In this document: piece by piece, positions 14,783-37,601 of the stretch
Position numbering within the stretch: the first letter of the stretch is position 1
How the letters are laid out: each line of letters begins with the position of its first letter
The notes under the pieces: model-generated
Told to the model about the DNA's origin: nothing
What the model saw: the letters and a program-made list of their open reading frames with translations, nothing else
Database searches by the model: none
Source: a bacterium
GTDB taxonomy: Bacteria; CAIWAD01
DNA length: 42,571 nt
Direction: 5' to 3'
NCBI GenBank assembly: GCA_030429345.1
Contig: JAUIFJ010000030.1
Location: 1 to 42,571 of the forward strand
Translations under genes and position numbers: made by a program

Positions 14783-16090
14783 TCAGATTCCCGGCAACAC
14801 CACCCGGAACACCGCGCCGCCCTCGGGCCGGTTCTCCAGCCCGAAGTCGAAGCCGTGCTGGCCCAGGATCTCGTGGACCAGGGTCAGGCCGATGCCCTGG
14901 CCTTCCGGGCGCGTGGTGAAGAAGGGGGTGAAGAGCTGGCGCGTGGCCTCGTCGGACAGGCCGGGTCCGTTGTCGGCGAAATCCATGCGCAGCTGAGCGC
15001 CTTCGACGCGGGCCGTGATCGTGATGCAGGCATCGGCCCGCCCCTTCAGCGCGTCGAGACTGTTGCGGATCACATTGATCAGGACCTGTTCCAGCTGCGG
15101 GCGGTCGGCGCTCATCGGCCAGCTTGAAGGGTCGATCTGCACCTTCAGTCCCACGCCGGCCTGCTCGAGTTGCGGCTTCTGCAGCGCCAGCAGGTCGCGC
15201 AGGACCTCGATCGCGTCCAGAGGCTGCCTGCTGGGTTCCGGCAGGCGTACGACATCCGCGTAGCTGTTCATGAACTGTCCCAGGTGCCGGCTGCGGTCGA
15301 GCACGATGCCGATGGCCTGGCGAAACTCCTCCCGCTCCCCTTCCGGCAGCAGGTCGGCCCATTCCAGGCAGCTGCGCAGCAGCGACTGGCTGCTTCCGAG
15401 GCTGTTGTTGATCTCGTGAGACAGGGTGCGGATCAGCTTCTCCCAGGCGGCCTTCTCGCTCTGCAGCAGTTCGCGGGTCAGGTCCTCGAGGATCATCACG
15501 GCGCAGGGATGCCCCTCGACCTGGATGCTGGCCCGTGATACACGAACCCGTTTCCGTCCCTCGAGCGGCAGGACCCTGCCGCCTCCCGCCCCCAGGTCCT
15601 TCCAGCCCTCCAGCAGGGCGGCGGGCAGGCGGGGGGCCTCCTCGCCGTCCAGCGACAGGATGCCGCGCGCCGCGGGATTGGCGTACTGCGGCTCGCCGCC
15701 GGGATGAAAGGTGATCACTCCCGCCGGCGAGACCTCCAGCACCTTCTCCAGGAAGTAGTGCTGCTCCTGCAGCCGTGTCCGCTCGCGACGCAGGCGGCGG
15801 ATCAGGTCGTTGTAGAGCCGGACCAGCTGGTTGACCTCGATCGAGCTCGAATGCGAGAAGGTGTGGCTGAAGTCCTGGTCCTGGATGAAGCGGCTGCCGT
15901 CGGCGATCAGCTCCGCCGGTCGCGCGCTGGCCGCCGCCAGGCGCTGGAAAAGCAGCAGGGAAGCCAGCACCAGGCCCTCAAGCAGGAGGATCCAGGGTCG
16001 GCCGAGTTCCCAGAGCAGCGCGCCGCCGAGCACGCCCAGCAACAGGTGCAGGAAGAGAATGTAGACGAAGAAGCGGCGGCGCAGCTTCAA
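14783..16090 (-). CDS. Sensor histidine kinase, NtrB-like, two TM helices with minimal loop
   Basis: A 435-residue kinase. Two hydrophobic helices (about residues 7-27 and 33-50) are joined by only a few residues (WELGRP), so there is no periplasmic sensor domain. Then come a HAMP-like/coiled linker, a PAS-like domain (about 118-200, VSPAGVITFHPGGEPQYANPA), and the catalytic core: H-box LSHEINNSLGSS, N-box NVIRNSLDAL, G boxes DNGPGL and GQGIGLTL. It should phosphorylate the response regulator encoded immediately upstream. The start is a TTG at 16090 overlapping that gene's stop (TTGA). The lack of an external domain suggests signalling through a membrane partner, plausibly the two permeases of the same operon (inference). 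Confidence 0.92.
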   Translation of the reverse strand: MKLRRRFFVYILFLHLLLGVLGGALLWELGRPWILLLEGLVLASLLLFQRLAAASARPAELIADGSRFIQDQDFSHTFSHSSSIEVNQLVRLYNDLIRRLRRERTRLQEQHYFLEKVLEVSPAGVITFHPGGEPQYANPAARGILSLDGEEAPRLPAALLEGWKDLGAGGGRVLPLEGRKRVRVSRASIQVEGHPCAVMILEDLTRELLQSEKAAWEKLIRTLSHEINNSLGSSQSLLRSCLEWADLLPEGEREEFRQAIGIVLDRSRHLGQFMNSYADVVRLPEPSRQPLDAIEVLRDLLALQKPQLEQAGVGLKVQIDPSSWPMSADRPQLEQVLINVIRNSLDALKGRADACITITARVEGAQLRMDFADNGPGLSDEATRQLFTPFFTTRPEGQGIGLTLVHEILGQHGFDFGLENRPEGGAVFRVVLPGI

Positions 16091-17469
16091 TGGGGAATCC
16101 CGTATTTCTCGAGCCGGCGGTAGAGCGAACTGCGCGTGATCCCCAGTTCCCTCGAGACGCGGCTCAGGTTGCCGTCAAGGCGCCGGATCGCCTCGCGGAT
16201 CATGCGCTCCTCCATTTCCTCCAGGGTCCCCGCGGGCAGGGAGTCGCTGGTCGAGCGCTCCGGCGAGAGCGATTCGGCACGGGCCAGGGAATCGGCCCGG
16301 ATTCCCTGCTCCCCTTCGAGCAGGAAGGTCCGCTCGATGGCCTGGCGCAGTTGTCTCACGTTTCCTGGCCAGGGCTGGCGTCGCAGCCAGTCGGCGGCCT
16401 CCGGATCCAGTTCCGGGATGCCGCGGCCATAGCGCGCGGCGAGTTCCGCCAGGAAATGCCGGGCCAGGGGCTCGATGTCTCCGGGGCGCTCCCTGAGCGG
16501 AGGCAGGTGCAGGGGAATCAGGTTGAGCCGGAAGTAGAGGTCTTCGCGAAAGCGGCCCTCGGCGATGGCCGCGCCCAGGTCGCGGTTGGTGGCGCTGATC
16601 ACGCGCACATCCAGCGGAATCGGGCGGCTGGACCCGAGGCGCTCGAAGCTGCGGTCCTGCAACACGCGCAGCAGCTTGACCTGGCAGGCGGGATCCAGGT
16701 CGCCGATCTCGTCGAGGAAGATCGTGCCGCCCTGGGCCAGCTCGAAGCGGCCGACGCGCTCGCTCTTGGCATCCGTATACGCGCCCTTCACGTGGCCGAA
16801 GAGTTCGCTGTCGAAGAGGCTTCCGGAAATCCCGCCCAGGTTGACCTTGACGAAGGGACCGTCGCGACGGGCGCTGTTGCGCTGGATCGCCTCGGCGATC
16901 ACCTCCTTGCCGCAGCCGCTCTCGCCGGTGATCAGGACGGAGGCCTCCGTCGCGGCCGTCCGTGAGACAACATCCATCAGCCGCAGCAGGGCGGGGTCCT
17001 CGCCGATGACAGCCGTATACTCTCCGCGGGAGTCCAGCCCTTCCCGGTCGATGACCGGGGCCGGCCCGCTGCGGAAGCCGCGCAGCTCCAGCGCCGTGGC
17101 CACGCTCTGCAGCACCTGCTCGTGGGACCAGGGCTTGGTGATGAAATCGGCCGCTCCGGCGCGAATGCCCTGGACGGCCAGGCTCACGCTGGCCCAGGCC
17201 GTGATCAGGATCACGGGCAGGCCCGGCTGTTCCTCCCGCAGTTCCGCCAGCAGGCGGAAACCCTCTTCGCCGTCCGTGCGCCGGCTGAAGTTCATGTCCT
17301 GGATCACGCAGTCCACTTTGCGTAAACGCGCCTGCGCGAGCGCCTCTTCCGGGGTCTCGGCGCGCAGCACGGCGTGACCCGCCTGGCGCAGCAGCAGGCC
17401 GAGGGAAGCGAGCACGGCCGGGTCGTCGTCGACGACCAGGATCGTGGCCTGTTTCGTGCTTGTCGCCAT
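16087..17469 (-). CDS. Sigma-54-dependent response regulator (NtrC type)
   Basis: A three-domain activator. The receiver (about residues 9-125) has acidic DDD, phospho-acceptor Asp in VIQDMNF, Thr in ITAWAS and Lys in FITKPW. The AAA+ domain has Walker A GESGCGKE and Walker B GGTIFLDEIGDLD. The sigma-54-contact loop reads GAYTDA instead of canonical GAFTGA. The C-terminal Fis-type helix-turn-helix is LDGNLSRVSRELGITRSSLY. I start at the ATG at 17469, which has GAGGGAG 7 bases upstream; an ATG at 17487 overlapping the permease stop is the alternative. Phosphorylated protein should bind paired palindromes and drive RNA polymerase-sigma-54. Two such site pairs lie upstream of its own operon. Confidence 0.95.
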   Translation of the reverse strand: MATSTKQATILVVDDDPAVLASLGLLLRQAGHAVLRAETPEEALAQARLRKVDCVIQDMNFSRRTDGEEGFRLLAELREEQPGLPVILITAWASVSLAVQGIRAGAADFITKPWSHEQVLQSVATALELRGFRSGPAPVIDREGLDSRGEYTAVIGEDPALLRLMDVVSRTAATEASVLITGESGCGKEVIAEAIQRNSARRDGPFVKVNLGGISGSLFDSELFGHVKGAYTDAKSERVGRFELAQGGTIFLDEIGDLDPACQVKLLRVLQDRSFERLGSSRPIPLDVRVISATNRDLGAAIAEGRFREDLYFRLNLIPLHLPPLRERPGDIEPLARHFLAELAARYGRGIPELDPEAADWLRRQPWPGNVRQLRQAIERTFLLEGEQGIRADSLARAESLSPERSTSDSLPAGTLEEMEERMIREAIRRLDGNLSRVSRELGITRSSLYRRLEKYGIPH

Positions 17470-17483
17470 GGTCTTGCTCCCTC

Positions 17484-18695
17484 TCATTCGTAGTGCAGGG
17501 CCTGCGAGGGCAGGATGCGCGAACTGAGCCAGCCGGGATAGAGCCCCGCCAGCAGGGACAGCAGGAGGATCGCCACGCTGGTCATTCCCAGCGCGGTCAG
17601 CAGCGTGTTCCAGCCGATGCCGCCCTCCAGCCCCAGCACGGGGAGCTGCAGCACGATCAGCCAGGCGCCCGCCAGCGCCAGCAGGGAAAGTATGGCAATT
17701 TCACCGAGTAGTTGCAGGAAGATCTCGCGCCTGCCCGCGCCCAGCGCGCGACGCAGGCCGATCTCCGGCCGGCGGCGTGTGACATTCTGCCAGAGCACGC
17801 CGATCAGGCCCAGCGCCGTCATCAGCAGCAGGAAGACGACCACCAGGCCGGCGATGCCCAGGGGCAGGGCGCGTTCGCGCAGCATGTCCATGCGCAGGTC
17901 GTCCAGCTTGTCCATGCGCAGGCTCCAGTCCGGGGCGATGGCCTGGATGCGCCGCACGGCCTCCTCCTCGAAGGCGCCGGGACTCGTTCCGGGCGCGACC
18001 CGCAGCAGGATCGAGCTGAGCAGGCGCGAGGTGTCGCTTTCGGACACGGTGTGGAAGTAGAGCGCCCGTTCCTGCATCAGGTCGCCCTTCGGCCGGAAAA
18101 TGGGCACCACGCCGATGATCTCGAGGGGGTCGTGCTCGCGCTCCTCGTCGACCCGGCGGCCGATGGGGTCGACGCGCCCCTCGACCATGGCCCGGCCTTC
18201 CTCGCCGGGGAAATAGTCCAGCAGGAACTGCTCGCTGACCACGATCGGGCGGTAAGCGCCTCCCAGGTCCTCCTCGCCCGGCCAGCGCCCCTGTGAGACA
18301 TGGATGCCCAGGGTCTCGGCGAGATCCGTGCGCGCCATGTGGATGTTGGTGGCGAAGGCCCCGGGCTCCCGCCCGAAGGTCGTGCGCCAGGTGCTGTTGC
18401 GGAAGGGGCCGGGCATCATCGCCGAGGCCGATTCGACCGTCGTGATCGCCTCGAGCTGCTCGAGGGCCTCGTTGAGCCGCGTGTTGTCTACCGCATTGCC
18501 GGCATTCCCCGGATTGACGTGGATCATGTATACATTTCCCCAGGAGAAGCCCAGGGGCTTGACGAACTTCCCGTAGGCATGCAGGCCCTGTGCCAGCACG
18601 AGGTAGAGCACGATCGAGCTGACCAGCATCTCCAGCAGCAGCAGGCCGTTGGCGCGCTTGCGGTTCCAGATCATGCGCAGGATGTGGCGGGCCAT
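17484..18695 (-). CDS. ABC transporter permease, MacB/FtsX type (second)
   Basis: A 403-residue inner-membrane protein: an N-terminal helix after MARHILRMIWNRKRANGLLL, a periplasmic MacB-PCD-like domain of about 230 residues, then an FtsX core of three helices (LVVVFLLLMTALGLIGVLWQ; then two near the C-terminus) with the RRRPEIGLRRALGA motif joining helix and cytosol. The C-terminus RILPSQALHYE is family-typical. It pairs with the related permease upstream to form a heterodimer. Such transporters couple ATP hydrolysis to periplasmic work and substrate export. The start overlaps the upstream permease stop by one base. Confidence 0.92.
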   Translation of the reverse strand: MARHILRMIWNRKRANGLLLLEMLVSSIVLYLVLAQGLHAYGKFVKPLGFSWGNVYMIHVNPGNAGNAVDNTRLNEALEQLEAITTVESASAMMPGPFRNSTWRTTFGREPGAFATNIHMARTDLAETLGIHVSQGRWPGEEDLGGAYRPIVVSEQFLLDYFPGEEGRAMVEGRVDPIGRRVDEEREHDPLEIIGVVPIFRPKGDLMQERALYFHTVSESDTSRLLSSILLRVAPGTSPGAFEEEAVRRIQAIAPDWSLRMDKLDDLRMDMLRERALPLGIAGLVVVFLLLMTALGLIGVLWQNVTRRRPEIGLRRALGAGRREIFLQLLGEIAILSLLALAGAWLIVLQLPVLGLEGGIGWNTLLTALGMTSVAILLLSLLAGLYPGWLSSRILPSQALHYE

Positions 18696-19942
18696 CAGCG
18701 GACTCCTTTCAGGGTCTGAACGGGATGCAGGCGCGAGATGCGCCAGGCGGGCAGGATGCCGGAGAGAACACTGAAGACCAGGACCATCGCCAGGGCGATC
18801 CCGAAGACGCGCCCGTTCCAGCCCAGTTCGATATAGGCGAGCAGACCGCTGTTCTCGATGATCCGTAGCAGGAGGGCGTGGCCGCCGACCGCGATCAGCG
18901 CGCCGATCACGACCAGGACCAGATTCTCCACCAGCAGCTGCAGGATCAGCACGCCGGAGGTTGCGCCGAAGGCCCGCCTCACGCCGATCTCGGATCCGCG
19001 CTCAAGCACGCGGCTCAGGTTCAGGTTGACCAGGTTGAGCGCCGGCAGGGCCATGAAGAGCAGAGCCGCCCCGAGGAGGACAGAGGACAGGCGTGCCCCG
19101 TAGCTGTTGGTATCCCCGGGTTCGTTGGTGCGGAACATCTCGTGCGCCATGCGTTCCAGCTCGGAGGAGAAGACCGTGGCGAGGATCTGCTGGTAGCTGC
19201 CGTCTCCGCCGATCTCGATCTCCCCGCAGCGGCGGTAGAGCTCCTGTCTCACGGCCTCGAAGGGCAGGCTCCCGTCCAGTTGGATCACGCCGCGGAAACT
19301 GCCCATCCAGTTGTCCTTGTAGGAGGCGTCCTTGAGCGTCGTCAACGGCGCCCAGGCCTCGGCATAGGACCAGCGGTCCATCTGGCTGACATCGCGCACG
19401 ACCCCGATCACGCGGAAATGCACATTGTCCAGTTCGAGCACCCTGCCGAGCGCCCCGTCTGGAAAGAGCAGATCGCGTGTGCTCTCGTTGATCACGAGCA
19501 CGGGCTCGGCCCGTTCCAGGTCCTCGGCCGTGTAGGGGCGTCCCTCGAGAAACTCGAAGTTCAGGACCTGCCAGAAGCTCTCGTCGGTGTGCTTCAGGGC
19601 GCGCTCCAGGCGAGCGCCTTCCTGCCAGGTGATCGCCTTGCCGTCGTCCGTGTAGAGCGTCGACTGTGATACGCCGGGCAGGTCGGGCACGATCTCGCGC
19701 AGCAGGCGATAGCCCGGATTGCCGTTCCAGTGGTTGCCCTCGCCCCACATCTCGGCATAGCCGATCATTGCCAGTCCGTGGTTTCCCTGGCGGGGTCCGG
19801 CGGGATTGAAGAGGCCGTCGAGCAGGGAGACCGCGGTCATCAGCACGGCCAGCGTGAAGGAGATGGCGAAAAGGCTCACTCCGGTAAAGAAGGGATTGCG
19901 GCGCAGGATGGCCAGCGCCGTCTTGACCGTATTGCGTATCAC
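18695..19942 (-). CDS. ABC transporter permease, MacB/FtsX type (first)
   Basis: A 415-residue paralogue of the next gene in the operon with the same layout: N-terminal helix (PFFTGVSLFAISFTLAVLMT), a large periplasmic domain including ESTRDLLFPDGALGRV and FRVIGVVRDVSQMD, three C-terminal helices, the RGSEIGVRRAFGAT coupling motif, and the ending SRLHPVQTLKGVR. The start is a GTG at 19942 overlapping the ATPase stop (GTGA). Two half-size permeases without a fused ATPase are common in FCB bacteria and Acidobacteria. The substrate is unknown: MacB relatives export macrolides, peptides or lipoproteins. Confidence 0.92.
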   Translation of the reverse strand: MIRNTVKTALAILRRNPFFTGVSLFAISFTLAVLMTAVSLLDGLFNPAGPRQGNHGLAMIGYAEMWGEGNHWNGNPGYRLLREIVPDLPGVSQSTLYTDDGKAITWQEGARLERALKHTDESFWQVLNFEFLEGRPYTAEDLERAEPVLVINESTRDLLFPDGALGRVLELDNVHFRVIGVVRDVSQMDRWSYAEAWAPLTTLKDASYKDNWMGSFRGVIQLDGSLPFEAVRQELYRRCGEIEIGGDGSYQQILATVFSSELERMAHEMFRTNEPGDTNSYGARLSSVLLGAALLFMALPALNLVNLNLSRVLERGSEIGVRRAFGATSGVLILQLLVENLVLVVIGALIAVGGHALLLRIIENSGLLAYIELGWNGRVFGIALAMVLVFSVLSGILPAWRISRLHPVQTLKGVR

Positions 19943-20616
19943 GCCATCACCTCCTGGTGCACGGGACGGCCGTCGTGCAGGCGCAGGCAGCGCTGTGCCC
20001 GGTCCGTCATCTTCTGGTCGTGTGTCACCATGATCACCGTGGTGCCTGCGCGGTTGAGACCCAGCAGGATCTCCATGATCTCGGCGCCCATCACGCTGTC
20101 CAGGTTGCCCGTCGGCTCGTCGGCCAGCAGCAGGGCCGGTTCGCCGACGATGGCCCGCGCAATGGCCACGCGTTGCTGCTGCCCGCCGGAGAGCTGGCCC
20201 GGAAAGTGGCGCATGCGGCCGCCCAGGCCGACGCTCTCCAGCGCCGCGGCGGCGGCCTCGCGGCGCGCCCGTCCGCCCATCTTCCGGTAGAGCAGGGGGA
20301 TTTCCACGTTGTCGAGCACACTCAGGTCGGGCACCAGGTGGAAGCTCTGGAAGATGAAGCCGATGCGGCGGTTGCGCAGGCGCGCCCGTTCCCGGTCTCG
20401 GATGTCCTGCAGGTCCACGCCGTCGAAAGTGATCCGCCCCGCGCTCGGCGCGTCGAGCAGGCCGATAATGTTGAGCAGCGTGCTCTTGCCGGATCCCGAA
20501 GGCCCCATGATCGAAAGGAACTCCCCGGCCCGGACCTCCAGGTCGATGCCTTCCAGGGCCTGTGTCTCGATGCGGTCGGTCCGGTAGACCTTCTCGATGC
20601 CTTCCAGTGTCAGCAT
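19939..20616 (-). CDS. ABC transporter ATP-binding protein (MacB/LolD-like)
   Basis: A 225-residue cytoplasmic ATPase of the MacB/LolD/FtsE branch. Walker A is GPSGSGKST, the Q-loop is in FIFQSFHLVPDLSV, the signature is LSGGQQQR, Walker B plus catalytic Glu is LLLADEPTGNLDS, and the switch His is in MVTHDQ. It powers the two permeases downstream. The ATG at 20616 is preceded by AAAGGGAAC and lies two bases after the adaptor stop; a longer frame to 20658 would overlap the adaptor gene and lacks conserved sequence. Confidence 0.95.
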   Translation of the reverse strand: MLTLEGIEKVYRTDRIETQALEGIDLEVRAGEFLSIMGPSGSGKSTLLNIIGLLDAPSAGRITFDGVDLQDIRDRERARLRNRRIGFIFQSFHLVPDLSVLDNVEIPLLYRKMGGRARREAAAAALESVGLGGRMRHFPGQLSGGQQQRVAIARAIVGEPALLLADEPTGNLDSVMGAEIMEILLGLNRAGTTVIMVTHDQKMTDRAQRCLRLHDGRPVHQEVMA

Positions 20617-20618
20617 GG

Positions 20619-21869
20619 CTAGTTCCCTTTCAGTGTGATCTTTTCCAGGTGATGCCAACGCTCCATGGCGCTGATCACGACGCGCTCCCCGGGCTGCAGG
20701 CCCTCGAGCACCTCGACCTTGTCGCGATTGCCCAGGCCGCAGCGCAGGCTGCGTCTCACAAGTCGATTGCCCTCGACGACGAAGGCCTCCTGCAGGCCCG
20801 CCGTGCCGAAGCCCGGTCCCCGCTCGACGACCAGCGTGTTCGTCCGCTCCTCGAGCACGACCTCCACGTCCACGCGGCGGTTGCTCCGCAGTTCCGGGTT
20901 GCGCGGCTCGTCCAGGCGCAGGTCGAAGGTGATCCGCCCGCTGACCACGCGGGGATGGATGCGCTCGACCCGCCCCGTCAGCTTCTTTCCGTCGAGGCGC
21001 ACGCGCGCGGGCAGGCCCTCCAGCAGGCGGGCGGCGTGGATGTCGCTCAGGCTGGCCTCGATCTTCCAGGCGTCGCGGTCGGCAAGGCGCGCCAGCACCT
21101 CGCCCTGTGTGACAAGGCGACCCTCCTCCTCCGGAACCCAGCTGAGCACGCAGGGCCGCGGCGCGCGCAGCACGGCCTCGTCCAGTTCGCGTACCACCTG
21201 GCGGCGTTCCCCTTCCAGCAGGCGCAGCTCGATGCGCAGGGCCTCGTCGCCCGCGGCCGATCCCTCGTCCAGGCGCCGGATGCGCTCGAGCAGTCCCTTG
21301 TGCTCCAGCCGCGCGATGTTCTCGTCCCGCTCGGCCTGGCGCAGGTTCCAGACCGTGGTCAGCCGGCGCTCGAAGAGCTGGGCCTCCTGCTCGCGCTTCG
21401 CCTCCAGGAAGGAGATGCGCTCGGCGAGGATCTCGACCTCGTTGGCCAGTTCCTCGCGCTGGCGCACCTGGTCGGCGCGGGCCTTGCGCAGCTCGGCCTC
21501 CTTGAGGGCGATGCGGTCTGTCACACGCTCGAGGCGCTCGCGGATCTCGCGGCGATCGAGCACGAGGATCGTATCCCCTTCGGCGAGCAGAGCGCCCGCC
21601 GGCGCCACCAGGCGCTCGATGCGCGCCTCGACGGGGCTGGTCCGCACATCCTCGAAGGCGGGGCGGACCAGGCCGTCGGCGCTCAGCGTGGCCTCCAGGC
21701 CGCCTATTGTCGCCGTCGAGAAACGCAGCTCGCCCGCCGAAAGCCCGGGACGCAGCAGGCGGCCCAGGCCGAGCCAGAGGAGGACCAGCAGGAGCAGGCT
21801 CCCCGACAGGAGCAGAACCCGGCGTCGCTGGCCCTGGCGGCGTTCGGCTGTGGATAGAATGCGGTCCAT
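20619..21869 (-). CDS. HlyD/MacA-type periplasmic adaptor
   Basis: A 416-residue adaptor. A basic N-terminus and single membrane helix (about residues 17-36, VLLLSGSLLLLVLLWLGLG) are followed by a split lipoyl domain (VRPAFEDVRTSPVEARIERL; PRPCVLSWVPEEEGRLVTQG), a long charged coiled coil (about 90-240), a beta-barrel segment (LPARVRLDGKKLTGRVERI) and a C-terminal domain. It should bridge the ABC permeases to an outer-membrane channel encoded elsewhere. The start at 21869 follows GAGAAG and sits about 25 bases downstream of a predicted sigma-54 start point. The reading frame extends far upstream, but that part overlaps the regulatory region and another gene. Confidence 0.9.
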   Translation of the reverse strand: MDRILSTAERRQGQRRRVLLLSGSLLLLVLLWLGLGRLLRPGLSAGELRFSTATIGGLEATLSADGLVRPAFEDVRTSPVEARIERLVAPAGALLAEGDTILVLDRREIRERLERVTDRIALKEAELRKARADQVRQREELANEVEILAERISFLEAKREQEAQLFERRLTTVWNLRQAERDENIARLEHKGLLERIRRLDEGSAAGDEALRIELRLLEGERRQVVRELDEAVLRAPRPCVLSWVPEEEGRLVTQGEVLARLADRDAWKIEASLSDIHAARLLEGLPARVRLDGKKLTGRVERIHPRVVSGRITFDLRLDEPRNPELRSNRRVDVEVVLEERTNTLVVERGPGFGTAGLQEAFVVEGNRLVRRSLRCGLGNRDKVEVLEGLQPGERVVISAMERWHHLEKITLKGN

Positions 21870-21904: not shown

Positions 21905-21920
21905 GGCAGGGATCGGGCCA
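21905..21920 (-). promoter_or_regulatory. Predicted sigma-54 promoter for the adaptor-ABC-regulator operon
   Basis: Minus-strand TGGCCCGATCCCTGCC fits TGGCACGN4TTGCW, with invariant GG and GC separated by exactly 10 bases. Transcription would start near 21894, giving a leader of about 25 bases before the adaptor ATG at 21869. Its activator site pair lies at 21974-22009. Confidence 0.72.
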
Positions 21921-21973
21921 GTTTGCAAGCACCATGAAATCAATCAGATGCGGTCGCTTCTTCTGCTCAAGCC

Positions 21974-22009
21974 TGTCCGCTGGCGCACCTGGGTGTCCGC
22001 TGGCGGACA
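21974..22009. promoter_or_regulatory. Paired enhancer palindromes upstream of the adaptor promoter
   Basis: Two 16-bp sites lie at 21974-21989 (TGTCCGCTGGCGCACC, degenerate right half) and 21994-22009 (TGTCCGCTGGCGGACA, perfect 7-bp arms around TG). Centres are 20 bp apart, two helical turns. The nearer site begins 53 bp beyond the outer edge of the -24 element. Paired dyads 60-100 bp upstream are typical of Fis-type sigma-54 activator sites. Confidence 0.7.
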
Positions 22010-22011
22010 GG

Positions 22012-22293
22012 TCAGTGAACCAGGGGAGCCCGCTCGGGCCGAGGCGGCGCATCCAGGGCGGCCTCCGCGTTGCGGCAGATCTGTCGCAGCAGCTCCTGGA
22101 AGCGGGCAACGCGCAGCGGCAGCTCCGCCGGGGATCCCGCGGCCAGCAGCAGGGCGCACTCTCTCCAGAGGGGCTCGATGTCCGCCGGACCACTTCCGGG
22201 GAAGGCCGCGGCGGGGAGGGGCTGCGGCTCCAGGGCCGGGACGGAAATCGCCAGCAGGAGGCAGGCAAGGAAAGTGTGGAGCAGGCGTTTCAT
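22012..22293 (-). CDS. Small exported protein, first gene of the sigma-54 regulon
   Basis: A 93-residue protein with a clear signal segment (MKRLLHTFLACLLLAISVPA) and a short mature part: a proline-rich start, then a helix-forming stretch (IEPLWRECALLLAAGSPAEL; RFQELLRQICRNAEAAL) with two cysteines, then a proline/arginine-rich end. I recognise no family. The ATG at 22293 lies about 37 bases downstream of a predicted sigma-54 start point. The stop lies two bases beyond the enhancer pair of the adaptor promoter. The signal peptide and position suggest a periplasmic stress or sensing accessory of the ABC system; that is inference. Confidence 0.75.
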   Translation of the reverse strand: MKRLLHTFLACLLLAISVPALEPQPLPAAAFPGSGPADIEPLWRECALLLAAGSPAELPLRVARFQELLRQICRNAEAALDAPPRPERAPLVH

Positions 22294-22340
22294 GGGATGT
22301 CCGGGTTGCTGCGGTCCAATCGATACACACCCCGGGAATT

Positions 22341-22356
22341 GGCAGGAAGCGTGCCA
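22341..22356 (-). promoter_or_regulatory. Predicted sigma-54 promoter for the small exported protein
   Basis: Minus-strand TGGCACGCTTCCTGCC has a perfect -24 heptamer TGGCACG, four spacer bases and CTGCC at -12, with GG and GC 10 bases apart. Transcription would start near 22330. The paired activator sites at 22410-22445 sit at the same distance as in the adaptor promoter. Confidence 0.8.
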
Positions 22357-22409
22357 GAACGCAACGCGCGAGGAAACAGGGACTTGAAAATGCAATCGTT
22401 TGGCGGGGG

Positions 22410-22445
22410 CGTCCCCTGGCGCACAGGGCCGTCCGCCAGCGGACA
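22410..22445. promoter_or_regulatory. Paired enhancer palindromes upstream of the small-protein promoter
   Basis: Sites lie at 22410-22425 (CGTCCCCTGGCGCACA, degenerate) and 22430-22445 (CGTCCGCCAGCGGACA, near-perfect). Centres are 20 bp apart, and the nearer site begins 53 bp beyond the -24 element. As in the other module, the promoter-proximal site is the weaker one. Confidence 0.7.
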
Positions 22446-22601: not shown

Positions 22602-23021
22602 ATGACCGCTACTCATGCCCGCAACCTGTCGATGCTGATTCCGCTTGGATTCAGCTGCCGAGACATCCGTCGCGAGGACGACAAGCACCTGCTGCAGCTG
22701 CAGCTGATGGACGCTCCGCGCTCGACCATCGACATTCGCTTCCGGGCTCCGGAAGACAGCGAGGGCATGCGAATGCTGCCCGTCCTGCTGGAGAACCTGA
22801 GCCACTACGCCAGCGCCCGCCGCGACAGCACCCTGGCCCGGTATACGCAGCTCTGGCTGGCCTGGTATACGCACGCCATCGCGGCGAAGCACGAGCGCTC
22901 GGCCATCGCCCGCCAGGCCGAGAGGATCGGCTCGCTGGACGAGCTGCCGGAAGACTGGCGCACCTGCCTGGCGGAGATCCGCGAGGGACGCAATCCCTTC
23001 AGCGAGGGCGAGGCGGCCTAG
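22602..23021 (+). CDS. Hypothetical cytoplasmic protein
   Basis: A 139-residue soluble protein with no recognised family. Residues 1-60 look like mixed strands and helices (IPLGFSCRDIRREDDKHLLQ); residues 60-125 are mostly helical and aromatic (ARYTQLWLAWYTHAIAAKHE), with EDWRTCLAEIREGRNPF near the end. The ATG at 22602 is preceded by a strong AGGGGGGA site. It is divergent from the sigma-54-controlled small-protein gene and alone on its strand, followed by a strong hairpin. GC-rich third positions support real coding. Confidence 0.75.
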   Translation: MTATHARNLSMLIPLGFSCRDIRREDDKHLLQLQLMDAPRSTIDIRFRAPEDSEGMRMLPVLLENLSHYASARRDSTLARYTQLWLAWYTHAIAAKHERSAIARQAERIGSLDELPEDWRTCLAEIREGRNPFSEGEAA

Positions 23022-24953: not shown

Positions 24954-26005
24954 TGCCCCGCCGCCTCGGGCAGTTCCAGCTGGAACCAGCCGGATCTCTC
25001 CGGCAGGTCCCGCAGGGCGATCATGTACTCGCCGCCACTTGCCGTGTCCAGCAGGGTTTCCGGGCATGTCTCGAAGTACGGTTCCTGCGAATGGTGGATC
25101 TCGAAGAGGGTGTTCGGTTCCAGGTGGGCTGGCACGGTCCAGCTCAGGCGGAGCTCCGGACCGAACACCTCTGCACGCAGATCGTGGATTTCCGCCGGCC
25201 AGACGAAGGGCCATTCCAGCAGCACATGGGCCGGCAGCTGGAAGCCCAGGGAATCGATGCTGGACCAGCTGCCGTCAAGCTCCATGCGGGCATAGTCGGC
25301 GGTCGTGTCCTGCTCGTTTGGCTCTCCGGGTCCCCAGGCGCTGTAGATCACTTCGTCGCCGTTGTGCCACAGCCAGGTTCCTTCCGTCTCCTCGTCCGTC
25401 GCGCCGATCCAGGCGGGCAGGTCCTCCAGAAGGCCCTGCAGGTAGATGTTTTCCTCCACGCTGCCCACGGATGCCAGCTCGGCACCCAGGGTGTAGGCGA
25501 TGCGCTGAATCTCGTCCCAGGTATTCGCCTCGTGGTTTCGGAAGAGCGTGTAGCTGTGGTCGTCGTATACGGAGACTTCCGTCTCCATGGAATAGGGCGG
25601 ACACAGCTCGAGAGGGTGAATCGGGAAGGGGGTTGGATACGGCGGTGGTGGGCATGGACCAGGCAAGTAGAACATGGCATAGAGCGGGTAGTCATTGATG
25701 TACTCGCGCGGCTCACCATTGCAGGAAAGGACAAGGCGATGCTCCAGAATCATGGCAGTGGTCGGGATGATGGCGTCGAAATTGTGTACGGCATGGATGT
25801 AGGACGGGAGTCCGCTCGGACCGGACACGGCGGCCATCAGGTTGAATTCGACATCGTCAGACAGGCGGCGCAGCCGCACATGGACTTCGGGCATGACCTC
25901 CGAATCCCAGTGGAGAGGAAAGGTCTTTGGATCAATGTCGATCTGCATCTCTGCTGTGCCTGCGCCAGCAAGAAGCAGGCAGGCAAGCGCGGAAAGAGAA
26001 AGCAT
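24950..26005 (-). CDS. Exported protein with C-type lectin-like domain
   Basis: A 351-residue protein with a signal segment (MLSLSALACLLLAGAGTA). An N-terminal region of unknown type (about 20-145) contains a proline-rich patch (PGPCPPPPYPTPFP). A C-type lectin-like domain (about 148-262) follows: YTLFRNHEANTWDEIQRIAY, then WIGATDEETEGTWLWHNGDE, then YSAWGPGEPNEQ, the WIGL and WxxGEPN motifs of that fold. The C-terminal part is fibronectin-like. It probably binds surface glycans or proteins outside the cell. There is no sorting tail. The ATG at 26005 has GAGG upstream. It heads a coupled minus-strand operon running to 23135. Confidence 0.8.
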   Translation of the reverse strand: MLSLSALACLLLAGAGTAEMQIDIDPKTFPLHWDSEVMPEVHVRLRRLSDDVEFNLMAAVSGPSGLPSYIHAVHNFDAIIPTTAMILEHRLVLSCNGEPREYINDYPLYAMFYLPGPCPPPPYPTPFPIHPLELCPPYSMETEVSVYDDHSYTLFRNHEANTWDEIQRIAYTLGAELASVGSVEENIYLQGLLEDLPAWIGATDEETEGTWLWHNGDEVIYSAWGPGEPNEQDTTADYARMELDGSWSSIDSLGFQLPAHVLLEWPFVWPAEIHDLRAEVFGPELRLSWTVPAHLEPNTLFEIHHSQEPYFETCPETLLDTASGGEYMIALRDLPERSGWFQLELPEAAGQ

Positions 26006-26312
26006 GCACAGCCTCGCGACGGGAGCTTCGCCGGTTGCCTCCCGTGGAGGAGGGCGGGGGGCAATCGGTCGATTGTTCGGAGTGTAGTATTGGCTGTGCC
26101 GGAATTCCAGAGTTATGACAGGCGGGGAAGGGGAAGTGAAGATGTGAGTTGCGTCTCAATTGCTCTGCGGGCGGAGTTTATGAGTTTCAGGGAAGCATAC
26201 GATTGCACCAGCGGCTACGCTCTGCATGAGAAGATCCGGCCAAAGGATCAGGAAATTCTGCTGCACACAACGATTCGATTTTACGCCGCGTTCCGTAAGG
26301 CGATTGAACTGG
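26006..26312. other. Intergenic, no gene seen
   Basis: This spans the leader of the lectin-like gene and the 3' side of the leucine-rich repeat gene. A TACACT hexamer near 26080 on the minus strand could be a -10 box, but no -35 partner is clear. Composition falls from GC-rich to mixed here. Confidence 0.35.
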
Positions 26313-27971
26313 TTAAGGGGATTTAGTTCGCTCGAATATGGATGGCATGTCTTCTCCTGTCATCCAATCCACTCCCCTAGCCTCAACATCCGCATACGGC
26401 TCCACCCTGTACGCAATCCGATCGGAGAACCTGGCCGCCAAGGCATGCACATGCGAATTCGTCGTCGGTGCCGCCAGGAAGTAGTAGGAGTTCGGGTTGT
26501 AGGGATTGCCCTCGCTGTAGAAGACTAGGTAGTAGTCGGGCGTGGTTTGGCTGCCGCAGAGGGTGACGTTAACGGGGGACCAGTCCAGGTAAACGTTGCC
26601 GCTAGGGTCAGTTGAGACTTGGAGGTCGTCGATGGTGGGGTACCTGGGGGCTACGCTGCCTTCGAGAGTGATGATATGGTGTTGTGGGTTGGTTGTGTTG
26701 GAGATGTCTGTCTGAGCAAAAATCTCAATCGTATCATTGAACTCTCCGTTTGAAGGAGGATTGAAGCCTATCTGCAATACTGCAGGATTTTGACCAAGAA
26801 TCTGCTGTGGAACTTCTGTGAGTAACTCGAATGGTGCTGAAGGCACTCTAATGCTATCCACTGTGATTGCGATTGCATCAGTTTCTAGAGCTAGCGACAG
26901 CTCATATGAGCAATCAAGTTCTGTGATCCAGGAAAGTGAGCTTACATAGCGTAGGCTATTCTGGCAGCTACTCAAGTAAGCTGGGTCTGGAAATAACAAC
27001 TCTGCAAGTTCACAAGAAGAATCAGGGATACAGATAAATGTGAGCGAAGAATTTCCAGTCAAGTTGATACTTGATGTTTGGCACAAATCAGCTGCGTGTC
27101 GTAAATCGGCCCACTGGAGGCTACTGCCGCTTAAGGAGAGCTCACCAGTACTTGTGCCACTAGGAAGAATCAAGCCGGTAATTGACGACACATCACCTAA
27201 AGTTAGACTCGCCTCAGGCCCAAGGGAGAAGAGTGGTTCAAAATCACTAGCGGATTCAAATGCTGGATTCCATATGTGTACAGTTCCGCCTGTGAGATTC
27301 GATCCGCTAATGAACTGTATAGGTGTATCGATTAAGTCCAAATACGCTAAATAGGACCCTTCGCCAAAGTCTATATGTGCTATATCACTCGAATAGCATT
27401 CTATAGTGACATGCGAATTATTAGGGAATAGTAACTCAGTGAAGGCGAATGTTCCTCCCCAAAGTCTACCTGTGAATGGAATTGATCCAGCAATCTGGAT
27501 GTTGCTGTATGTGCTCTGCATGTTAATTACATCCATGTAGCCAGAGTTGCTTTCCAAGTGTAAAGCTATTGGCGATTCATTTTCGTTCAGCGTTACATTT
27601 ACCGTCTGATTCATGTGTAAGATACTCAATAGTTCTATGTAACTGCCCCAGATGTTAACAGTTGTGATACTGCTGCTTCCATCTAAGAGGAGATTTGTCA
27701 GAGTAGGCATAGAATCTATCTCTATTGTGTTTAGGTTCGGGAAGCTCGAAATAGAACCAAGATCTGAGATGGTGTATGAATCATCATCTAGATTAATGGA
27801 AGTAACTGATTGCGATTCAGAATACTCTAGCACATCGTTTGAGTTGCTGTCATATCCATGATCGATTAGCCACCGCTTGAACTCCGGATCCAGCGGCACA
27901 AAATCCGCCCACACCTGTACACTCATTGCCAGGACACAATAAGCTGAAGCAAGCGCGCGTAGACAGTTCAT
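26313..27971 (-). CDS. Exported leucine-rich-repeat-like protein
   Basis: A 552-residue protein starting MNCLRALASAYCVLAMSVQVW (signal segment), then an acidic motif DSNSNDVLEYSE and irregular repeats of hydrophobic positions (ISDLGSISSFPNLNTIEIDS; LLLDGSSSITTVNIWG) that look like an LRR or beta-solenoid. A C-terminal fibronectin-like segment (VYLDWSPVNV) follows. There is no sorting tail. Base composition is clearly lower in GC than genes to the left, with many AT-ending codons, suggesting transfer or a different history. I start at 27971, the ATG that begins the signal peptide; upstream sequence in this frame runs over the tRNA remnant. Its role is unknown, probably surface binding. Confidence 0.75.
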   Translation of the reverse strand: MNCLRALASAYCVLAMSVQVWADFVPLDPEFKRWLIDHGYDSNSNDVLEYSESQSVTSINLDDDSYTISDLGSISSFPNLNTIEIDSMPTLTNLLLDGSSSITTVNIWGSYIELLSILHMNQTVNVTLNENESPIALHLESNSGYMDVINMQSTYSNIQIAGSIPFTGRLWGGTFAFTELLFPNNSHVTIECYSSDIAHIDFGEGSYLAYLDLIDTPIQFISGSNLTGGTVHIWNPAFESASDFEPLFSLGPEASLTLGDVSSITGLILPSGTSTGELSLSGSSLQWADLRHAADLCQTSSINLTGNSSLTFICIPDSSCELAELLFPDPAYLSSCQNSLRYVSSLSWITELDCSYELSLALETDAIAITVDSIRVPSAPFELLTEVPQQILGQNPAVLQIGFNPPSNGEFNDTIEIFAQTDISNTTNPQHHIITLEGSVAPRYPTIDDLQVSTDPSGNVYLDWSPVNVTLCGSQTTPDYYLVFYSEGNPYNPNSYYFLAAPTTNSHVHALAARFSDRIAYRVEPYADVEARGVDWMTGEDMPSIFERTKSP

Positions 27972-28124
27972 CTTAGAGACCTCATGGGCTGGCAATACAA
28001 TTCGAGATGGACATAGCCGAGACGACATTTGAACGGTACGGAGGGTGGGGTAGAGTTGCAATGAGAACCTGATCGCCAATACGAATGACGATGGAATTCG
28101 TTGATACAATCTGAAAACGATGTA

Positions 28125-28166
28125 TGGGCCCAGAGGGACTCGAACCCCCGACCTAGTGATTATGAG
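28125..28166 (-). tRNA. 3' part of a CAU-anticodon tRNA gene (attachment-site remnant)
   Basis: Read on the minus strand from 28166 the layout is exact: anticodon loop CTCATAA, 5-base stem strand TCACT, 5-base variable loop, T-stem GGGGG, T-loop TTCGAGT, T-stem CCCTC, acceptor TGGGCCC and discriminator A at 28125. No D-arm or 5' acceptor strand precedes it, so it is not a functional gene. It is the tRNA 3' fragment left at one junction when an element integrates into a tRNA gene. The anticodon could be Met or modified Ile. Confidence 0.8.
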
Positions 28167-28177
28167 ATACTTCTCAT
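28162..28177. promoter_or_regulatory. Candidate crossover core (inverted repeat at the anticodon loop)
   Basis: ATGAGATACTTCTCAT is a perfect 6-bp inverted repeat with a 4-base centre, overlapping the anticodon loop of the tRNA remnant. Tyrosine recombinases often cut inside such imperfect or perfect dyads in tRNA anticodon loops. Position and symmetry support it as the att core. Confidence 0.5.
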
Positions 28178-28180
28178 GTT

Positions 28181-28220
28181 CAATTGACGACAATTGACCA
28201 CGATTGACGACAATTGACGA
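28181..28220. repeat. Four tandem 10-bp repeats, candidate integrase arm sites
   Basis: Consecutive units are CAATTGACGA, CAATTGACCA, CGATTGACGA and CAATTGACGA. Two further copies occur at 28296-28315 (CGATTGACGA, GGATTGATAA). They sit between the att core and the integrase gene, exactly where arm-type integrase or excisionase sites lie in P4/lambda-like elements. An alternative is a binding array for a regulator of int. Confidence 0.6.
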
Positions 28221-28403
28221 AAACTCCCTAGATGGTTGAAATAGTGTAACATACAATCGGAATTATTTCGCCAATGCCCTGCTCTCGATTCCAGCCGATT
28301 GACGAGGATTGATAAAAAGTATGGGACCGGCATGGGACCGAAGGGGTGTAAACAGCTAGATTCTTGACCTGGTGATTCTGCAGTGTTTTCTATGGAGCGG
28401 GTG

Positions 28404-29567
28404 ATGAGATTCCGATTCACGAAGGCCGGGCTCAGGGAATTGAAGACCGAGAAGAGCCGTGAATGGTTCTATGATGATCAGGTCCATTCCCTGGCATGCA
28501 TGGTGACCAAGGCTGGCGCCAAGTCCTTTTATGTTTCCAAGCTCTACAGGGGAAAGAAGCACCAGATCCGTATTGGTTCCGTAGAAGACATTCCAATCCT
28601 GAAGGCCAGGCAGATTGCAGTCGAGATTCTGGGCCAGCTGTTGGCGGGCAAGATGCCGGCTTCCCGACGCGAAGCCGTGCGCCAGGAGGAGATCACTCTG
28701 GCTGAAGCGGCCGAGGAGTACTTCAAGTATGCGGATGCGCACAGGCGGCCTGTCACTGTTGCCAAGTACCGCAGTCAGTGGAAGAGCTACATCGCGCCCT
28801 GGGCTGGGAAGCGCCGTTTGGCAGACTTCCGGAGGCTGGATGTCCGAAACTTCCATCTGCAGTTGGGCGCGGACATCGGGCAGGTCACGGCCAACAGGGT
28901 AATTGCCCTGATTCGCGCGATCTACAACCGGACGATCCGGGAGCACGAGCTGGAATTGTTGAACCCTGCAATCAGCATCACTGCCTTTCGTGAAAGAAGT
29001 AGAACCCGGCGGCTGCAGCATGGTGAGATCCGTGCTTTCTTCGAAGCCCTTGCCGCAGAAGCCAACCAGGACATCCGGGACTTCATCCTGCTGCTCTTGT
29101 ATACGGGCGCACGCAAGTCGAACCTGTTGGCCATGAGGTGGAAAGATCTGGATCTGAATGTTGGGACCTGGGTCGTGCCTGCTGAACAGGCGAAGTCTGG
29201 TGTGGAGATTCCGATCGCGCTGGCCGGCACAGTTTGTGAGATCCTGAGGGCCAGGCAGTCCCAGCCACAGAATGAGTTCGTTTTCCCCGGCCGGTACGGT
29301 AGAGGGCACTTGAAAGAGCCGAAGATTGGCTGGGATCGGATTCGCAATCGGGCGGGGCTGCAGGACCTACGCATGCATGATCTGCGCCGCAGCCTGGCCA
29401 GCTACCAGTTGGACACTGGCGCCCCGCTGGAAGTGATCCAGAAGACTCTGGGTCATGAGAACAGGACTACTACTGAAGTCTATGCTCGGATGGCCCTGGA
29501 CCCCGTTCGGCAGAGCTTGGAGAAGGCGGTGCAGGCTATACAGCGGCATGCCAGTAGGTTGGACTGA
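28404..29567 (+). CDS. Tyrosine recombinase/integrase, P4-like
   Basis: A 387-residue integrase. It has an N-terminal DUF4102-like arm-binding region (about 1-85, FRFTKAGLRELKT; SKLYRGKKHQIRIGSVEDIP), a core-binding domain (about 95-180) and a catalytic domain with Arg in TGARKSNLLAMRW, Lys in EQAKSG, HDLRRS, His in LGHENRTTTEVYAR and the Tyr of that same motif. All catalytic residues are present, so it should be active. The ATG at 28404 has GGAG six bases upstream; 28392 (ATG) and 28383 (GTG) are alternatives. It integrates the element into the tRNA at 28125. Confidence 0.93.
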   Translation: MRFRFTKAGLRELKTEKSREWFYDDQVHSLACMVTKAGAKSFYVSKLYRGKKHQIRIGSVEDIPILKARQIAVEILGQLLAGKMPASRREAVRQEEITLAEAAEEYFKYADAHRRPVTVAKYRSQWKSYIAPWAGKRRLADFRRLDVRNFHLQLGADIGQVTANRVIALIRAIYNRTIREHELELLNPAISITAFRERSRTRRLQHGEIRAFFEALAAEANQDIRDFILLLLYTGARKSNLLAMRWKDLDLNVGTWVVPAEQAKSGVEIPIALAGTVCEILRARQSQPQNEFVFPGRYGRGHLKEPKIGWDRIRNRAGLQDLRMHDLRRSLASYQLDTGAPLEVIQKTLGHENRTTTEVYARMALDPVRQSLEKAVQAIQRHASRLD

Positions 29568-29728
29568 CTCAGCTGGGCCAGCTCTTCCAGGACCGGGATT
29601 GACAGACGCCAGACCTTATAGACAGGTTTCGCGCCTGACTTTAGTCGCTTTAAGATCACGGATAGTGTTTTGAGTTGATAGCGAGCGGGGCACAATCCTT
29701 CATTCCTCCATTAAATAGAAAATCTGGG

Positions 29729-29757
29729 TTGTGGCGCACCACATTCTCGACTATATT
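29729..29757 (+). promoter_or_regulatory. Possible housekeeping-type promoter before the HTH-M78 gene
   Basis: TTGTGG (29729-29734) and TATATT (29752-29757) are separated by 17 bases, giving a start near 29764, about 70 bases before the ATG. The -35 is a partial match to TTGACA. FCB bacteria often use other consensus elements, so this is tentative. Confidence 0.35.
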
Positions 29758-29832
29758 TGTGATCAGCAGAGAAAAGTGTGCAAGAAAGGACACACATGGA
29801 CAATGTTCTGCTAGAAACCACGGGAGGACGCC

Positions 29833-30951
29833 ATGGAGGCTGTAGTCAAACCATGGTCAAAGACGTTTCGTGAGTTCTTTGAAATTCAACAGAATCTGCA
29901 CGAAGCGACAATGACCGAGATCGCACAATGCCTGAACCGCCCACGACGCTCTGTGTATGACCTACTCGAAAAACCAAGCAGGGAATTCCTAGAAGAGGTC
30001 GGGGCTCTGTTCGGAATCCCAGCGGACAAATTGATTCGCCAGTACCTGGAAGGCGAGGATGATAGCCGGCGACAGCATCTCAAGCATCTCAAACAAATCG
30101 GAAGAATCGCCAGGACATTTCCACGGCGGGATTTGCAGAAAGTTGGGGTTCTTCGCAAGAAAGTGGGCTTGGTTGATTCCTGCGCAGAGATCCTTGAAGC
30201 GCTTGGAATCGGGTCAGCTGAAGAGATCGACTCAACCCGAACAGTGGATTGTCTTGCTTCCTCTGAGCAGAGGAAAACTAGCGCTAAGGGGTTGAATTGG
30301 GTGTTGGCCTGTGCTGAGAAGGTGATCGAGCGGGAGAATGTCTCACTTCCCTCCTTTGACAGTGAAGAGCTTGAGAAGCTCGCCAGTGATCTCATTCTGT
30401 ATCCTGCTAATGGGCGGCTAGGATTCGATGCTGTGGCAAGAAATCTTGCCGAAGCTGGTGTGCACTTGATCGTGCTGCCCAAGTTTCCCCACCTGGGGGC
30501 AAGGGGTGTGTCATACAAGAGGAACGACCAGTATGTGATACTCCTTTTTGAGAAGGAGTACTGGGATACGGTCTGGTTTGCCTTGGCACATGAGATCGGC
30601 CATCTCATATTGCATAGGGATGTGCTGGAGCAGACTCGTGTACACGTAACAGAAGGGGAACGCTTTTCACTTGTTGAGGAAAGTGAAGTAGAAAACGAAG
30701 CGAATAGCTTCGCTGTTGAAGCGCTCCTCCGCGACATTGATTTGGAAGAGTTTCGCGGATACAGCTTCAATGTCAAGTCCATTGCAGCACGGGCGAAGGA
30801 TGTAGGAATTGAGCCGTCCATTGTATTCGGAAGGCTGGCCTGGGAAATGGATGAATACTGGCGGTTTAATCCGTTCAGGAAAACGTTCAAACGGGAGATG
30901 AAATGGAGCACATCATGGATTGGAATGACAACAGAATTGTCATCGGCATAA
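29833..30951 (+). CDS. HTH plus ImmA/IrrE-type M78 metallopeptidase
   Basis: A 372-residue protein. The N-terminal helix-turn-helix (about 23-60, MTEIAQCLNRPRRSVYDLLE) is followed by a helical linker. A zinc peptidase domain of the ImmA/IrrE family (about 190-320) contains HEIGHLILHRD with the HExxH motif and an ExEANSFAVEALL third-ligand helix. Such fusions regulate mobile elements or act as toxin-antitoxin antitoxins by cleaving or sequestering a partner. The ATG at 29833 has GGGAGGA upstream. The small gene 15 bases downstream is the natural partner. Lower GC fits its location in the integrated element. Confidence 0.88.
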   Translation: MEAVVKPWSKTFREFFEIQQNLHEATMTEIAQCLNRPRRSVYDLLEKPSREFLEEVGALFGIPADKLIRQYLEGEDDSRRQHLKHLKQIGRIARTFPRRDLQKVGVLRKKVGLVDSCAEILEALGIGSAEEIDSTRTVDCLASSEQRKTSAKGLNWVLACAEKVIERENVSLPSFDSEELEKLASDLILYPANGRLGFDAVARNLAEAGVHLIVLPKFPHLGARGVSYKRNDQYVILLFEKEYWDTVWFALAHEIGHLILHRDVLEQTRVHVTEGERFSLVEESEVENEANSFAVEALLRDIDLEEFRGYSFNVKSIAARAKDVGIEPSIVFGRLAWEMDEYWRFNPFRKTFKREMKWSTSWIGMTTELSSA

Positions 30952-30966
30952 TTCGGAGGACTTCGA

Positions 30967-31359
30967 GTGAAGAAGTTCAACTTTCGGAAAGCGGATCAGA
31001 AGGCGGTTCAGCTCCGCCTTGATCTGGAAGTTCAGTCGCACAACCCCCTGGGAGACGCGACAAGAGACGGACAGCACTACATGTATTACAATGCTTGGCT
31101 GCCCTATGTGCACGAATTTCTTTCGGGCGCGCAGGGCAAGGCGGCAAGAGAGGAGGTGGGTTGCTTTCTGAAGAAGGGCCTGAGATCCGGGGCCTGCATG
31201 AAAACGGCTTCACAAGGACTCTGGCGAGAGGCAATCACAGAGTTGCGTTTGATAGCAGCTTCTGTGTCGCCGGAAGAGATCCCGGAAGCCGTAAACGCTC
31301 GGTTCACGGCAATGAACGAGCGATGGGTTGATGACGATTTGAACGGAATGCCTTCCTAG
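30967..31359 (+). CDS. Hypothetical partner of the M78 regulator
   Basis: A 130-residue soluble, mostly helical protein (MKKFNFRKADQKAVQLRLDL; NAWLPYVHEFLSGAQGKAAR; VSPEEIPEAVNARFTAMNER). I do not recognise a family. The GTG start at 30967 has GGAGGA upstream. It follows the HTH-M78 gene after 15 bases and precedes a strong terminator, so the two form one transcript. Its job could be toxin, antitoxin or substrate of the peptidase; nothing in the sequence decides. Confidence 0.65.
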   Translation: MKKFNFRKADQKAVQLRLDLEVQSHNPLGDATRDGQHYMYYNAWLPYVHEFLSGAQGKAAREEVGCFLKKGLRSGACMKTASQGLWREAITELRLIAASVSPEEIPEAVNARFTAMNERWVDDDLNGMPS

Positions 31360-31392
31360 AGTAGGAAGGTAAAGTCGCCGATGACATTCAGG

Positions 31393-31427
31393 CCGGGCGC
31401 TGCTTCAACAGCGCCCGGTTCTATTTT
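31393..31427 (+). terminator. Intrinsic terminator after the M78 pair
   Basis: CCGGGCGCTG and CAGCGCCCGG form a perfect 10-bp stem around CTTCAA, followed by TTCTATTTT. Confidence 0.9.
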
Positions 31428-31748
31428 CGGCATATGAGTTCAATAAATCAAATGGAAACGAATGCTGTTAAATTTTCAACTGTTCTGTTGAATCTTGATT
31501 CCACTTACCCGAACTAGTTTCTAACTTGCCCACCAGCTTCAAGACCCCGACCTTGACAAAGTTGCCGGGCTTCCAAGGGGAAAGCCTGGCGCCGGCTGAA
31601 CCGGATTTCCGATTCCTTCTCCTTCACTGGACTAGGGCACTTTCAGCCAGGGGCTTCCTTCCGCTGAGGAGGCCCCATCTTCGAACACCAAGCTTCCTTG
31701 TACTGATTCTTTGCGAGTGGGGGCCCTGCCGGATCGGTATGGCCTTTC
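31428..31748. other. Intergenic with two strong hairpins
   Basis: No gene is seen. Two GC-rich imperfect hairpins lie at 31564-31590 (arms GCCGGGCTTCC and GGAAAGCCTGGC) and 31650-31676 (GGGGCTTCC and GGAGGCCCC). Neither has a T-run on either strand. They could be a decayed repeat, a small structured RNA or a downstream barrier for the minus-strand cassette ending at 31749. Confidence 0.4.
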
Positions 31749-32306: not shown

Positions 32307-32324
32307 ACTCAGAATCCATAGAAT

Positions 32325-33194: not shown

Positions 33195-33219
33195 TACCGC
33201 CCCCTTTCAATGGAATCAC

Positions 33220-37541: not shown

Positions 37542-37548
37542 TCATGAA

Positions 37549-37579
37549 AATACCTCCCCGCCAGTTGCGGGGAGGTATT
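37549..37579. terminator. Perfect hairpin between two beta-helix genes, also covering a ribosome-binding site
   Basis: AATACCTCCCCGC (37549-37561) and GCGGGGAGGTATT (37567-37579) pair perfectly over 13 bp around CAGTT. On the minus strand the stem is followed by TTTTC, so it can end the 37602-40955 transcript. The plus strand has CCTTTTATTT after it. The GGGGAGG that could serve the next minus-strand start at 37541 lies inside the stem. Confidence 0.8.
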
Positions 37580-37601
37580 CCTTTTATTTGTCGTTGCCGT
37601 A

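Follow-up and report, generated by a model that had tools for sequence, protein, structure and literature searches.

Two σ54-type promoter modules of identical geometry at a MacB-type exporter operon, and a related layout with helix-turn spacing across phyla

The window, by which we mean the whole 42,571-nucleotide stretch of DNA that was analysed, contains a minus-strand operon for a periplasmic adaptor, an ABC ATPase, two MacB_PCD-FtsX permeases, an NtrC-family response regulator and a histidine kinase (Table 1). Upstream of the adaptor gene lie a 93-aa ORF and two modules, each composed of a pair of operators and a -24/-12 element. For the exporter, the nearest NCBIfam models are DarD, DarC, ADOP and MacB, none of which reaches its curated cut-off. 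In the response regulator, PF00072 (REC), PF00158 (Sigma54_activat) and PF02954 (HTH_8) score over the cut-off, and the protein matches the NtrC-family chain 4l4u over its full length; this REC-AAA+-HTH_8 arrangement agrees with the preliminary description, in which the downstream operon encodes a σ54 response regulator. The σ54 contact loop reads GAYTDA in the window regulator and GAFTDA in most relatives, compared with the canonical GAFTGA. Regulators of Desulfovibrio whose loop is GAFTDA or GAYTDA are regarded as activation-competent (PMC4641369), and for VfmH, which carries GAFTDA, σ54 was not seen in a pull-down (PMC10714721). The genome encodes rpoN (PF04552, E=2e-58) and has at least 27 NtrC-type matches. 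By hydropathy, the histidine kinase has a very short loop between its TM helices and no periplasmic domain. An ARAGORN tRNA-Glu call at 21538-21625 falls inside the adaptor coding sequence and is probably a false positive.

Table 1. Regulatory elements and genes of the twin-module locus (positions in the window).
Feature	Position	Strand	Remarks
Module 1 distal operator TGTCCGCTGGCGGACG	22445-22430	minus	1 mismatch, last base
Module 1 proximal operator TGTGCGCCAGGGGACG	22425-22410	minus	3 mismatches to the perfect palindrome
Module 1 σ54-type -24/-12 element TGGCACGCTTCCTGCC	22356-22341	minus	53 bp from proximal operator
93-aa ORF	22012..22293	minus	Start about 47 bp after module 1 -12 element
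Module 2 distal operator TGTCCGCCAGCGGACA	22009-21994	minus	Perfect palindrome
Module 2 proximal operator GGTGCGCCAGCGGACA	21989-21974	minus	2 mismatches
Module 2 σ54-type -24/-12 element TGGCCCGATCCCTGCC	21920-21905	minus	53 bp from proximal operator
HlyD-type periplasmic adaptor	20619..21869	minus	First gene of the operon; PF13437; RND_mfp and DarC-like matches below cut-off
ABC ATPase (MacB/LolD/DarD-like)	19939..20658	minus	PF00005; best NCBIfam match DarD, below cut-off
MacB_PCD-FtsX permease 1	18695..19942	minus	Matches first half of ADOP
MacB_PCD-FtsX permease 2	17484..18695	minus	Matches second half of ADOP
NtrC-family response regulator	16087..17487	minus	GAYTDA loop; recognition helix ITRSSLYRR; candidate activator of modules 1 and 2
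Histidine kinase	14783..16090	minus	Two TM helices, about 7-23 and 32-56

Read along the minus strand, module 1 has the layout TGTCCGCTGGCGGACG-GCCC-TGTGCGCCAGGGGACG-N53-TGGCACGCTTCCTGCC and module 2 the layout TGTCCGCCAGCGGACA-CCCA-GGTGCGCCAGCGGACA-N53-TGGCCCGATCCCTGCC. The palindrome centres are 20 bp apart in both modules. This distance and the 53-bp gap were re-read exactly from the sequence, and the positions first given for the two modules are exact to the base. The preliminary description assigned two 16-bp palindromes to each module; the distal ones are indeed perfect or nearly so, but the 3 and 2 mismatches of the proximal ones were passed over. These proximal operators are degenerate and share the identical deviation GTGCGCCAG. 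The 53-bp spacers, which had been called unrelated, are indeed so, with only 19 of 53 bases in common. Both elements fit the σ54 core GG-N10-GC of the consensus TGGCACG-N4-TTGC(A/T), and they are the sole zero-mismatch -24/-12 matches in the window. The -24 box of module 1, which reads TGGCAC, is better than that of module 2. The distal operator of module 2 lies 2 bp beyond the small ORF's stop codon, and the end of this module is about 35 bp from the operon start on the same strand.

Judged by eye, the N-terminus of the 93-aa ORF (MKRLLHTFLACLLLAISVPA) resembles a signal peptide of the Sec type, and the ORF's GC content at the three codon positions (0.80/0.53/0.83) resembles that of the operon genes. 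We infer that this ORF is a genuine gene for an exported protein. Neither Pfam nor NCBIfam has a match to it, and a homologue search gave no convincing relative, with one match at E 0.007 in G029. No intrinsic terminator or σ70 promoter was called within modules 1 and 2. The same predictions gave a weak stem at 22467-22454, above module 1, and another call on the plus strand in the adaptor start.

The arrangement is also found at related operons. In G056, the region 5′ of the homologous adaptor reads TGTACGGATTCGTACA-CCCC-TGCACGCATGCGAACG-N53-TGGCACAAGAATTGAC, with the same 20- and 53-bp distances as in the window, and at the corresponding site in G058 the palindromes are 22 bp apart and 54 bp from TGGCACAGATATTGCA. 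The operators of these two genomes lead to the degenerate form TGTNCG-N4-CGNACA. The Porphyromonas locus (L236) shares the gene order of the window operon and runs as module, adaptor, permeases, ATPase, permeases, regulator and kinase; its regulator is 50% identical to that of the window, and its module has a spacing of 20 and a gap of 45, which places it one turn closer. In Tannerella (L235), two divergent modules with common operators lie near 16071 and 16214. Pairs at corresponding places in G056, G058 and Porphyromonas/Tannerella bear on a point that the preliminary description had counted against itself, namely that orthologous operons might lack both motifs; these related operons do not. 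In the G032 operon (46% identical), TGGCACGGGGCTCGCT is kept and the palindromes are not recognizable, and for the adaptor the same-family genomes G001-G003 offer no close orthologue (best E 1.5e-10). The Tannerella palindromes form a row with 19-bp steps, and the gaps of 44 and 63 bp run in opposite directions.

We scanned the GTDB genome collection for a TGTNCG-N4-CGNACA pair with TGGCAC at 41-65 bp and obtained at least 82 modules in at least 80 loci. The matches listed are mostly from Bacteroidota, and also from Alpha- and Gammaproteobacteria, Cloacimonadota, KSB1 and Rhodothermia. Forty genomes from those matches contain 60 modules at gaps of 41-70 bp, one at 71-100 bp and one at 11-40 bp, and the reversed control in the same genomes gives 0 at every gap range; 20 of the 60 modules are beyond the original match of each genome, many being paralogues in two genomes. 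In a domain-wide sample the strict pattern is rare, matching 3 of 290 genomes (control 0; two of the three are operons already named), a lower bound since this pattern misses the window itself. As defined here, the layout has palindromes 18-22 bp apart at 41-45, 51-56 or 62-65 bp from TGGC. The window shows the 20- and 53-bp distances twice, and its distal sites fit except for the last base of module 1. The first genes among the matches listed (n=68) include HlyD (20), MacB (16), outer-membrane efflux (12) and ABC ATPase (8) genes, and the same regulator type lies beside the layout in 31 of the 80 loci among the matches listed, usually divergent from the exporter. It is well supported that the window is one instance of a cross-phylum layout for MacAB/ADOP/Dar-like tripartite exporters. 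Two Bacteroidales genomes carry eight modules (G087, L145) and nine modules (G098, L086), so that some species have a regulon of this layout instead of a single switch.

The distance between operator pair and promoter falls into three classes among the matches listed: 41-45 bp (17 modules), 51-56 bp (49) and 62-65 bp (13); the other 3 of the 82 modules lie between these classes. A periodicity analysis of 70 non-redundant modules gave 10.6 bp as the best period (R = 0.63), compared with a maximum of 0.40 in 2000 uniform draws; as the scan itself spans 41-65 bp, this periodicity applies inside that range, with the adjacent ranges of 11-40 and 71-100 bp covered by the match counts given above. 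The gap distances step by about one turn of the DNA helix. A dependence on helical phase is known from synthetic enhancers and from the Vibrio qrr enhancers (PMC4740811). The start of an IHF-like core, WATCAANNNNTTR with at most 1 mismatch, lies exactly 19 bp upstream of the -24 box in 29 of the 82 modules listed; in another 6 it is at -20 or -18, with none elsewhere between -30 and -13. The core is thus a feature of a subset and does not strictly define the layout. Its position profile (loci L074-L153) is similar across the three gap classes. In the classical arrangement, IHF assists the looping (PMC7057263). In modules 1 and 2, the scores of this IHF-like element are not above those of shuffles.

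The fourth base of the operator corresponds to the recognition helix of the regulator. Among the matches listed, a TGTGCG operator is accompanied by a TR[YF] helix in 7 of 7 cases, and a TGT[CTA]CG operator by a [TS]R[AST] helix in 18 loci, to which the window is added. Both kinds of operator and both kinds of helix are present in G087, and four Bacteroidales genomes that have only non-G operators contain no TR[YF] regulator among the matches listed. We rejected a reading of this match as many independent events, because the tree gives a single evolutionary change of helix and operator; the match therefore supports the pairing and does not prove it. In the tree, the window regulator groups with Bacteroidales regulators that are about 50% identical (SH-aLRT 87). 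A third regulator subclass, with the helices TRQTLYNK/SRPTLYSK and GAFTDA loops, is found at the Bacteroidales loci L208, L214, L216, L220 and L227.

We consider it well supported and probable that both sites are σ54 promoters activated by the NtrC-type regulator of the operon itself, which would combine positive autoregulation with co-expression of the 93-aa ORF. Autoregulation and a second promoter were already proposed in the preliminary description, and at the sequence level the operon-encoded regulator, rpoN, the motifs in related operons and the correspondence of base 4 with the helix all point the same way. In the proposed mechanism, the membrane kinase would phosphorylate the regulator, which may then occupy the paired palindromes. 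With a distance of 20 bp between them, two bound dimers would sit on roughly the same face of the helix and seed an AAA+ hexamer, and this hexamer could loop across the 53-bp spacer and remodel the closed σ54 polymerase. Module 2 would drive the adaptor, ATPase, two permeases, regulator and kinase as a positive feedback on the export pump, and module 1 would drive the 93-aa exported protein, with possible read-through into the operon. The identical twin geometry would be accounted for by one activator with a helix-phase requirement that must reach both promoters. Transcription starts at modules 1 and 2, the signal and the role of the small protein are predicted elements of this scheme.

Taken one at a time, the motifs do not stand out clearly from chance in the GC-rich window: single palindromes with at most 3 mismatches number 6 against 3.6 expected, and -24/-12 elements with at most 1 mismatch number 29 against 22, neither excess being clearly significant. 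It might therefore be argued that palindromes and promoters are an effect of chance or low complexity in GC-rich DNA, but the combination is unique. A tandem palindrome pair with at most 3 mismatches occurs at exactly two places in the 4.24-Mb genome, modules 1 and 2, with 0 in the reversed control, and a palindrome at the fixed distance from a zero-mismatch -24/-12 element is likewise found genome-wide only there. Together with the recurrence 5′ of homologous operons, this leaves chance a negligible probability, and we count it as already refuted. The confinement of the pair to this operon also bears on the idea that the operators are real and bind another protein, an NtrC-type paralogue or a repressor, with no autoregulation by the adjacent regulator. 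Palindromes alone name no binder, and the many NtrC-type matches of the genome offer candidates; nevertheless, the regulator type adjoins the layout in 31 of the 80 loci listed and its helix tracks operator base 4, which makes a different binder unlikely.

A reading at the RNA level has the module 2 repeats form a hairpin after read-through from module 1, ending or stabilizing the message of the small ORF. The pair is suitably placed just behind the stop codon and folds as RNA at -30.5 kcal/mol (z = -4.3), but it lacks a T run and coincides with no terminator call. Moreover, the module 1 pair is upstream of its own promoter and is thus absent from the transcript of that promoter, and the helix-turn distances to the -24 box at other loci are needless for an RNA element. 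The hairpin could be a side effect, and we regard an RNA function as the main explanation as very improbable. There is somewhat more room for a locus in which only module 2 works, module 1 being decayed or coincidental and the 93-aa ORF not a gene. The mismatches in both module 1 palindromes suit this view, as does an ORF with neither relatives nor a clear ribosome site. Against it stand the better -24 box of module 1, a spacing that is identical despite an unrelated spacer, and the signal-peptide-like start and coding-like GC pattern of the ORF; we judge a single working module to be improbable.

Parts of this scheme are known from other systems: some σ54 response regulators use paired sites upstream of their promoters, and control of a small periplasmic protein along with the regulator's own operon also has a precedent. 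This precedent is ZraPSR of E. coli/Salmonella, in which σ54-dependent activation by an NtrC-type regulator extends to the regulator's operon and to the small periplasmic protein ZraP; ZraR is reported to bind upstream of zraP and zraSR (PMC7657598). However, the ZraR operon has no exporter, its operators and gene order are unlike those of the window, and the 93-aa ORF, with no match in Pfam or NCBIfam, does not resemble ZraP or any other known family. The Vibrio qrr/LuxO system shares natural σ54 enhancer loops that are sensitive to the helical repeat (PMC4740811), but it concerns one regulator in one genus, whereas the steps of the present layout cross phyla and are tied to exporters. For COG0577/COG1136 ABC systems, a 2025 survey reports a σ54 enrichment, presented as first evidence (PMC12316311), and a computational link of σ54 promoters to MacB-type permeases/ATPases, seen in Bacteroidia, Opitutia and Gammaproteobacteria; the text covered by a term search gives no activator, operator pair or enhancer spacing for these ABC genes.

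The exporter itself resembles MacAB-TolC, DarBCD (darobactin) and ADOP in its adaptor, ATPase and MacB_PCD-FtsX permeases. MacB fuses ATPase and permease, while the window has a separate ATPase and two permeases, and the window exporter differs from MacAB, DarBCD and ADOP in its predicted NtrC/σ54 control. In Bce-type detoxification modules, an FtsX-superfamily ABC permease lies beside a two-TM kinase with almost no extracytoplasmic loop, and the regulator is of the OmpR type. The window kinase, with two TM helices and a short loop, is similar, but its partners are an NtrC-type regulator, a MacB-type permease pair and an adaptor. A search of the open literature turned up no earlier account of such an operator pair, of its spacing classes or of a link to this regulator type, so the window is a member of an apparently undescribed layout.

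The layout offers a candidate activator, an operator sequence and a spacing rule for many ABC exporters whose σ54 control is only predicted, and it provides a natural cross-phylum data set on enhancer distance set by DNA helical phase. It also draws attention to co-regulated small genes, whose products might be cargo or accessories of these pumps. More speculatively, these may be widespread self-regulating export modules in which a sensorless kinase reads the state of its MacB/FtsX-type pump, an NtrC-type regulator acts on σ54 promoters from an operator pair placed at whole helix turns, and the 93-aa Sec-exported orphan, co-expressed from the twin module, serves as periplasmic cargo or accessory, a picture that we find possible but rather doubtful.

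Beyond module 1, a divergent 139-aa ORF at 22602-23021 has no Pfam or NCBIfam match. Further on, the GC content of the window drops from about 0.66 to about 0.50 (26000-42571). This region includes an ORF resembling a phage-type integrase (28383-29567) and an ORF with a HEIGH metallopeptidase-like motif (29833-30951), and from the GC drop and these two ORFs it looks like a genomic island.
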